From the NCBI GenBank assembly GCA_009694955.1, contig SIBZ01000005.1, positions 1-36,294 on the forward strand: DNA of 36,294 nucleotides, in the 5' to 3' direction. The notes below the pieces were generated by a model. It did not search any database and was not told the DNA's origin. It saw nothing but the letters and a program-made list of their open reading frames with translations. Below are positions 27,450-35,847 of the stretch, piece by piece. The stretch comes from Candidatus Tayloriibacteriota bacterium (GTDB lineage: Bacteria > Patescibacteriota > Minisyncoccia > Phycocordibacterales > UBA10002). Position numbers and translations under genes: made by a program. Numbering within the stretch: position 1 is the first letter of the stretch; every line of letters starts with the position of its first letter.

Positions 27450-27458
27450 AATACGCAG

Positions 27459-27820
27459 TCTATATCAGGTAATTGCTCCAATCCGCCCCTGTGGCGGGTT
27501 GGAGAGGAAAGTCCGAACACTCGCCGGTGGCAACATCGCGCAGAAAGGTAGCGGGTAACGCCCGTCCGCCGTAAGGCGTGAGATGCGAACAGAGACGCCG
27601 AAATTCGAAAGGAAATCGGCTCCCCGATGCAAATCGGGGAGAGTCCCGGCAGTAATGCCGGGGTTGAAACGGCTAAATTCTTACCCGAGTGCAAGGCCGT
27701 GTCTTCCGACAGTACGTCGGGGGAAGTGCCGCTCGAGCTTTGCAGTAATGCAAGGCCTAGATAAATAATTACCCATCCTTCGTTAAGAAGGAGGACAGAA
27801 TTCGGCTTATAGATATAGAT
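27459..27820 (+). ncRNA. rnpB: RNase P RNA, bacterial type A
   Basis: The 5' universally conserved block GAGGAAAGTCCGAACAC is near 27503. The 3' block GGACAGAATTCGGCTTAT is near 27793. AGATAAATAATTACC lies between, matching the AGAUgAAUgA region. The ends pair as stem P1 (CTATATC/GATATAG). Internal hairpins such as CTCCCCGATGCAAATCGGGGAG and CCGGCAGTAATGCCGG are evident. This is the catalytic RNA that trims tRNA 5' ends. The ends are accurate to a few bases. Confidence 0.95.
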
Positions 27821-27830
27821 TGCGAAATAA

Positions 27831-35258: not shown

Positions 35259-35495
35259 ATGGCCCAAGTAACTATTTACTCAACTCCGGCCTGTGTCTAT
35301 TGCAACGCAGCGAAAGCGTTCTTCAAGGAGAAAGATGTTGCCTATACGGAACATAACGTTGCCATCGACCAGGACAAGCGCAAGGAAATGATAGAGAAAA
35401 GCGGGCAGATGGGTGTCCCCGTTATCGATATTGACGGACAGCTTGTCGTGGGATTCAACCAGCCGAAAATTAAACAGCTCTTGGGGATTAGTTAG
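35259..35495 (+). CDS. Glutaredoxin-like (NrdH/Grx) protein
   Basis: This 78-aa protein starts MAQVTIYSTPACVYC, carrying the redox motif CVYC (~12-15). MGVPVIDIDGQLVVGFNQPKIKQLL follows, with the cis-Pro (VPV) and glycine turn of the fold. It shuttles electrons between thiols and target enzymes such as ribonucleotide reductase. The partner reductase is not in the window. Confidence 0.93.
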   Translation: MAQVTIYSTPACVYCNAAKAFFKEKDVAYTEHNVAIDQDKRKEMIEKSGQMGVPVIDIDGQLVVGFNQPKIKQLLGIS

Positions 35496-35624: not shown

Positions 35625-35645
35625 GCCCCCGTAGTTAAATGGATA
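35625..35645 (+). pseudogene. 5' fragment of a second tRNA-Arg-like gene
   Basis: GCCCCCGTAGTTAAATGGATA is the acceptor 5' strand and most of the D-arm of a tRNA, nearly identical in its D-arm to the intact tRNA-Arg at 35700. It stops abruptly and runs into a GC-rich hairpin. Its acceptor strand pairs perfectly over seven bases with the fragment ending at 35846. Confidence 0.8.
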
Positions 35646-35699
35646 CCTGCCCGACTCCCGTCCGCTTCGATAGCGAAGCGTGTCGGGCGGATGCATGAC
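35646..35699. repeat. GC-rich hairpin element between tRNA fragment and intact tRNA
   Basis: CGCTTCG-ATAG-CGAAGCG forms the inner stem, and CCCGAC/GTCGGG an outer one. This looks like a palindromic insertion interrupting the tRNA's D-arm. Confidence 0.65.
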
Positions 35700-35771
35700 G
35701 CCCTTATAGTTAAATGGATATAACAGCTCCGTCCTAAGGAGTAGTTGTCGGTTCGATTCCGGCTAAGGGCA
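35700..35771 (+). tRNA. tRNA-Arg(CCT)
   Basis: Acceptor GCCCTTA/TAAGGGC, D-arm with AGTTAAATGGATATAAC, anticodon loop GTCCTAA (anticodon CCT), and T-arm GTCGG-TTCGATT-CCGGC. CCA is not encoded. It lies between the two halves of another tRNA-like gene. Confidence 0.95.
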
Positions 35772-35797
35772 TACTATAGCAAGTCAGGCGGGCGGGG

Positions 35798-35847
35798 AAC
35801 GAGCCGTTCCTAAGGGATAGATGTCAGTTCGATTCTGGCCGGGGGCA
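35798..35847 (+). pseudogene. 3' fragment of the second tRNA-Arg-like gene
   Basis: AACGAGCCGTTCCTAAGGGATAG... gives an anticodon arm with loop TTCCTAA (CCT), then a T-arm GTCAG-TTCGATT-CTGGC and acceptor strand CGGGGGC plus A. It aligns without gaps to the intact tRNA-Arg. The anticodon stem has two mismatches, which suggests decay. Confidence 0.8.

Follow-up and report, generated by a model that had tools for sequence, protein, structure and literature searches.

Several ways of interrupting genes for structural RNAs are known in bacteria: group I introns occur in tRNA genes, in the anticodon loop; hairpin intervening sequences (IVS) are inserted in loops of 23S rRNA, where the flanking helices of the structural RNA are kept; and genomic islands integrate in tRNA genes, whose 3' ends they restore. 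Disrupted tRNA genes have been reviewed as falling into intron-containing, split and permuted classes, and the same review describes the archaeal split tRNAs of Nanoarchaeum and Caldivirga as consisting of two parts with complementary extensions at the break (PMC4390854). Among mobile elements, those of the IS200/IS605 group move as single-stranded circles, their Y1 transposases bind hairpins, and enzymes related to these transposases have been linked to REPs (PMC6006769). REPs (repetitive extragenic palindromes) and IS200/IS605-derived elements are moved by Y1 (HUH) transposases (PMC6006769, PMC2817692, PMC8266576). No report of a tRNA nested within a tRNA in bacteria was found in the open-access literature, which is weak evidence of absence.

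The window analyzed here (the whole stretch of 36,294 nucleotides) is contig C36 of an 869-kb draft genome (G000) that is 88.6% complete. Sequence and alignment place at 35625-35847 a tRNA-Arg(CCT) gene nested inside another tRNA-Arg(CCT) gene, with all parts on the forward strand. The 5' part of the outer gene (GCCCCCGTAGTTAAATGGATA, 35625-35645), which has uninterrupted homologues at loci L036, L038, and L042, contains the acceptor strand that pairs with 35840-35846, positions 8-9, the 5' strand of the D-stem, and the entire D-loop, and terminates in GGATA. Next comes the left arm of a palindromic element (CCTGCCC..GCATGAC, 35646-35699), delimited from the sequence and from relatives and enlarged by an extra hairpin seen upon folding (GCCCGAC..CGCTTCG-ATAG-CGAAGCG..GTCGGGC, 35649-35688), the stem of which pairs GCCCGAC at 35649-35655 with GTCGGGC at 35682-35688. 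The inner, intact tRNA-Arg(CCT) (35700-35771) was called by ARAGORN, scores 61.3 bits as an Rfam tRNA, and is identical at 72/72 positions to that of the relative G012. A 7-nt spacer (35772-35778) leads to the right arm (GCAAGTCAGGCGGGCGGG, 35779-35796), which is complementary to the left arm, identical to G012 at 18/18 positions, and paired with its partner in the G012 minimum free energy (MFE) structure. The outer 3' part (35797-35847) then supplies the 3' strand of the D-stem, the anticodon arm with two mismatches, the T-arm, the acceptor 3' strand, and the discriminator A. Upstream, a glutaredoxin gene (35259-35495, forward strand; Pfam PF00462, 7.7e-20) marks the orthologous locus and is a neighbour also in G012, G008, G001, and G010. 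Elsewhere in the window, Rfam detected a bacterial class A RNase P RNA gene (27457-27825, 127.5 bits).

The insert (35646-35796, 151 bp) precisely separates D-loop position 21 from D-stem position 22 of the outer gene, and when it is taken out the outer cloverleaf rejoins with no bases lost, gained, or duplicated. The rejoined acceptor is paired at 7/7 positions (GCCCCCG/CGGGGGC) and the T-stem at 5/5, with one mismatch in the D-stem and two in the anticodon stem (alignment columns 28-42 and 31-39). With TTCCTAA as its anticodon loop, the outer tRNA is also an Arg(CCT). At the nested locus both ARAGORN and Rfam called the inner tRNA alone and missed the outer, and ARAGORN with introns switched on still did not recover the nests. 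An earlier note, made from the sequence alone, had described an intact tRNA-Arg(CCT) between the halves of a second tRNA-Arg, with perfectly complementary 7-bp acceptor strands and halves some 150 bases apart, all of which is borne out. The 3' half does hold the T-arm and CGGGGGC, but it starts upstream of the anticodon arm given in that description, at GAAC, the 3' D-stem strand. Likewise, the GC-rich hairpin noted there is real, but it is the extra hairpin of the left arm; the left arm in G012 is without it.

The locus was then compared in relatives, as had been proposed, and holds either a single uninterrupted tRNA or a nest, with no tandem pair in those examined. One uninterrupted outer-type tRNA is found beside glutaredoxin in G001, G004, and G010, which belong to the same genus, the downstream neighbour gene in G004 and G001 being unlike that of the window. 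The orthologous locus of G012, an independent assembly (MHRI01000012.1), has the same nest with a left arm of only 19 nt (CCTGCCCGACTTGCCTGAC) that pairs with the right arm. The locus is nested in G008 too, where the 3' half of the outer tRNA is disrupted. The extra left-arm hairpin, absent from G012, is shared by G008 C2, G008 C28, and G000 C12. Structure prediction for the G012 nest (MFE -80.6, z -4.9) recovered the arms and the inner cloverleaf, whereas that for the window nest (z -2.3) retained the outer acceptor together with the extra hairpin and did not show the arms paired with each other. Pattern-based searches found no CCT tRNAs in G000, G012, and G085 other than the two that make up the nest, and in G001, G004, and G010 just the uninterrupted one; a search of the genome for a further functional copy of the outer tRNA therefore yielded, besides the outer itself, only the inner. 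From this distribution between nested and un-nested genomes, the inner tRNA seems to have taken the place of the outer as the working copy.

Nearly identical arms, left CCTGCCCGACTTGCCTGAC and right GCAAGTCAGGCGGGCGGG, surround differing tRNA-Arg genes (CCT or CCG) across several families of one order of Patescibacteria. The short left arm occurs in G012, G060, G085, G093, G004, and L072. The cargo within the arms is Arg(CCT) in G012, G060, and G085 and Arg(CCG) in G004 and G093, the cargo types being an Arg(CCT) of GCCCTTA type, an Arg(CCT) of GTCCCCG type, and Arg(CCG). The insertion site also varies between the D-loop and the anticodon loop: at L072 it is the anticodon loop that holds the Arg(CCT), which separates positions 37 and 38 of the outer tRNA, and at L069 (Wolfebacteria) an Arg(CCT) occupies the same 37/38 site, with a changed left end. 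An order-wide scan with the arm pattern matched three genomes, and a tRNA-Arg was enclosed in every match. The arms are much more alike than the tRNAs that they enclose, which points to the spread of an element. Nests with other arms were also seen (Arg(CCG) in G761, G012 C20, and G275; Arg(TCT) at L069).

Palindromes with the same ends and no tRNA are present in G000 at L147 and L149, and 8 short palindromes occur among the loci examined. The L147 palindrome (CCTGCCCGCCATGGGCTTTGGCAGGCGGG) lies within a dispersed repeat, and its removal restores the repeat consensus (GTCCGAGCGAAG) exactly, so that the tRNA-free palindrome was likewise inserted without target duplication. Joining the outer halves of 7 nests was gap-free, i.e. 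there was no target site duplication. PF01797 (Y1 transposase) was detected in 11 of 13 genomes; the two in which it was not found, G012 and G760, are both nested. On its 5' side, the hairpin is preceded by GATA at the D-loop site, CCTA at the anticodon-loop site, and CCGA at L147, and the canonical REP guide GTAG/GTGG was not found at the hairpin foot at any of these sites. Because of this foot, and because PF01797 is missing in G012 and G760, the element is here only likened to REP/IS200-IS605: it would seem to work like an element of that type, with no claim of identity with the class. The left arm had no convincing match outside the order in a phylum sample, with two single-mismatch matches only. 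A phage origin of the element was set aside after a scan of viral contigs with a single exact arm pattern gave no match.

In G000, 2 of 39 tRNAs (the window Arg(CCT) and a tRNA-Ile(TAT) on C7) are flanked by complementary acceptor/T-arm halves, compared to 0.10 expected from shuffled flanks. A third nest in this genome, Arg(CCG) on C12, has most of its outer 3' half gone. More widely, a pattern requiring two T-arms at a distance too short for tandem tRNAs matched 88 of 394 genomes of the order, well above a reversed-pattern control, though many single matches are not nests. Within fetched loci, 46 of 168 tRNAs lie inside outer cloverleaf halves, 23 of the 46 being compatible with the same anticodon; these counts are estimates, because only loci already showing a second T-arm entered the set and, where the split falls in the anticodon loop, the criterion for an equal anticodon is lenient. 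When upstream flanks were exchanged among loci, the means were 15.8 (nested) and 3.1 (same anticodon), with maxima of 27 and 8. A chance origin of the nests is ruled out by the shuffled-flank and flank-swap controls together with the recurrence at the G012 orthologous locus. Beyond Arg, the wider screen produced candidate nests for Ile, Ala, Pro, Trp, Val, and Ser, with Ser(GGA) (L199), Ile(TAT), Ala, Pro, and Trp nests clear by eye; L242, with an inner Met(CAT) within a different outer tRNA, is an apparent exception. Inner and outer anticodons are the same in 8/8 D-loop Arg nests with a contiguous outer anticodon (window, G012, G060, G085, G093, G004, G281, and G275).

Several other features of these tRNA loci were observed. 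Three Arg(CCT) tRNAs form a triple nest in G281 (C2; L129/L166): the innermost occupies the D-loop of the middle one, which is perfect, and the middle one is in turn flanked by the two halves of the outermost. At L053, L069, and L117, the D-loop of the outer tRNA also contains a tRNA-free hairpin or two. The Ser(GGA) nests at L183, L185, L190, L191, and L199 have in common a conserved leader (TTCCCGATTTAC..GTAAATCGCAATCCC) that separates the outer 5' half from the inner tRNA. At L147, L059, and L037, the tRNA is followed by another tRNA-associated repeat, of ~100-130 nt, on the far side of which the 3' end of the tRNA recurs. Additionally, some tRNA-Arg(CCT) have G, not U, at T-loop position 55 (L037, L053, and L082; GTGCAATTC).

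At the Ile locus of G000 (L139, G000:C7:5016-5688, minus strand), one Ile tRNA carries a tRNA-Ile(TAT) within its anticodon loop, and the outer 3' half occurs twice. In G004 (L231) the two Ile(TAT) tRNAs have changed places relative to G000, the inner of one genome being the outer of the other, and both keep paired halves, a swap that would need explaining whether the outer is read as replaced or as put to dual use. A covarying hairpin core, with 18 of 22 pairs compensated, is common to the Ile nests, and a covariance model of this core matched 15 of 26 genomes, often in several copies, those inspected lying mostly between genes. The possibility that the core is a new self-splicing intron was dropped in view of this dispersal between genes in several copies per genome; it is more likely a second family of mobile palindromes. 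A dispersed palindromic repeat of ~110 nt (conserved core GCGAGGAGC / GTCCGAGCGAAG) was seen in several copies per genome, including within tRNA-Ile genes (its loci include L278, L279, L282, and L291-L294), and retrieved no Rfam family in the Ile loci tested.

The outer halves have been conserved to differing degrees. Seven joined Arg outers, including that of G085 after two tRNA-free D-loop hairpins were dropped from it, gave a gap-free alignment in which 95.2% of cells pair and 13 of 21 pairs are changed on both sides, a level of pairing and covariation reached by 0/500 shuffles. This shows that the halves are parts of one evolved cloverleaf, though some of that history may predate the insertion. 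Between the window and G012 the inner tRNA is unchanged, and the outer is identical at 64/72 positions (8/72 differ), its anticodon-stem changes in the window breaking pairs. All 24/24 acceptor and T-stem positions are unchanged, as is the right arm, compared to identities of 0.77 and 0.62 in the spacers and 0.71-0.78 in coding DNA. Such retention would exceed what is expected of a dead remnant, and the window outer has probably lost decoding while keeping its paired shell; it may also be a neutral remnant, or conserved via gene conversion. Across nests, outers range from perfect through partly decayed (L069 and the outermost of G281) to outers with one half lost (G008 C2), and at G001 C43 the outer is gone and an arm relic is left. 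Several outers in other genomes pair at 21/21. Perfect outers of other lineages, such as those of L199 (G023, Ser(GGA)) and L241 (G067, Ile(TAT)) and the middle tRNA of G281, may serve dual use.

The reading that we favour, with a probability of roughly 0.6, is that a palindromic element with a tRNA-Arg(CCT) broke the resident isoacceptor and replaced it, the outer halves being kept as a shell. An element with arms CCTGCCCGAC.. / ..GCAAGTCAGGCGGGCGGG would carry a complete tRNA-Arg(CCT) gene and insert exactly, without target duplication, into the resident tRNA-Arg(CCT), between D-loop position 21 and D-stem position 22, breaking that gene yet delivering a substitute with which the cell survives. 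The inner and outer anticodons would agree because only matching cargo would be viable. In the transcript the arms, and likewise the outer acceptor strands, would pair to form a base-paired shell; RNase P and 3' nucleases would then free the inner tRNA from it, and the outer acceptor, T-stem, and arms are perhaps retained to keep the inner tRNA folded and exposed. We infer this processing route and the identity of the charged tRNA, and mobilisation was presumably by a Y1/HUH transposase of IS200/IS605 or REP type. The insertion of a tRNA-carrying element into a tRNA gene had been among the origins suggested in the earlier note, and is supported by the uninterrupted relatives, the exact insertion, and the same ends elsewhere. 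Against it stand the lack of Y1 in G012 and G760, the atypical foot, the outer acceptor and T-stem left unchanged beyond what a dead remnant would be expected to keep, and the occurrence of one arm pair with different tRNAs, which it leaves unexplained.

Alternatively, the insert could be a removable intervening sequence, with one transcript giving both tRNAs and the outer being spliced or working in two pieces, the acceptor stem, D-stem, and arms holding its halves in place after excision of the inner. The pairing and compensatory changes of the seven outers, the acceptor and T-stem unchanged between G012 and G000, the 21/21 pairs of several outers elsewhere, and the Ile(TAT) pair that swapped roles with halves still paired would all suit this explanation, but the covariation may antedate the insertion, some outers are decayed or lost, and the anticodon-match rule would be unexplained were the outer functional. 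Moreover, RtcB (PF01139) had no match in 11 genomes, which are incomplete MAGs, compared to matches in 9/14 controls, and neither the window nor 12 other nested loci (E<=1) matched any Rfam intron or ribozyme family. A group I intron or other Rfam RNA as the insert was rejected on the latter grounds. The two anticodon-stem mismatches and the missing RtcB make a spliced or trans-assembled window outer unlikely, and the split tRNA assembled in trans that had once been raised for this locus is not supported, its halves also lying in cis, 151 bp apart. Overall we regard a removable insert as unlikely. It is distinctly unlikely that nested tRNAs are a general architecture of the order, with two functional tRNAs made from each transcript and the outer rejoined or used in two pieces after inner excision without known bacterial splicing machinery.

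At the other extreme, the outer halves could be purely neutral leftovers of gene replacement with no role, as the decay series of outers, the broken anticodon stem in the window, and the much better conservation of the inner would suggest; with 24/24 acceptor/T-stem and 18/18 right-arm positions unchanged against 0.62-0.77 in spacers, we consider this improbable. Recombination between tandem tRNA-Arg genes, which had also been proposed, deletion between them, or an artefact of metagenome assembly has in its favour that tandem tRNAs are known elsewhere and that the genomes are mostly MAGs. Nevertheless, either is highly improbable as the origin of the nest, given the same nest at the orthologous locus in an independent assembly and in further genomes, the exact rejoining at break points in several nests, and the single tRNA at the locus in relatives, none of those examined having a tandem pair here.

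A tRNA gene within an isoacceptor tRNA gene is a further class beside the intron-containing, split, and permuted ones, and suggests that essential single-copy RNA genes can be replaced in place by mobile DNA with its own rescue copy. Nested tRNA genes also mislead tRNA annotation, only the inner being called here, and they raise the testable question of whether the outer tRNA is dead, a folding shell, or a second product.

Compared to the known systems, the element resembles REP/IS200-IS605 in its palindromic hairpin ends, dispersed copies, and exact insertion free of duplication; Y1 family genes occur in most of these genomes, G012 and G760 being without a match. The element differs in having a whole tRNA gene in its loop, in sitting within tRNA genes, in a 5' tetranucleotide other than GTAG/GTGG, and in that no enzyme is linked to it here. 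Like an archaeal split tRNA, the window outer is in two parts with complementary arms at the break, but the halves are bacterial, lie in cis 151 bp apart, and enclose another tRNA, RtcB was not found in these genomes, and the anticodon stem of the window outer is broken. Exact insertion into a tRNA loop is shared with group I introns, from which the nest differs in having no Rfam group I core, a D-loop site, and an enclosed tRNA. The 23S rRNA IVS are similar as hairpin inserts in the loop of a structural RNA with flanking helices kept; here, however, both host and cargo are tRNAs, with no evidence for a working fragmented product. Finally, as with genomic islands, mobile DNA has entered tRNA genes without killing the host, but in this case a complete isoacceptor arrives and the host gene remains interrupted.
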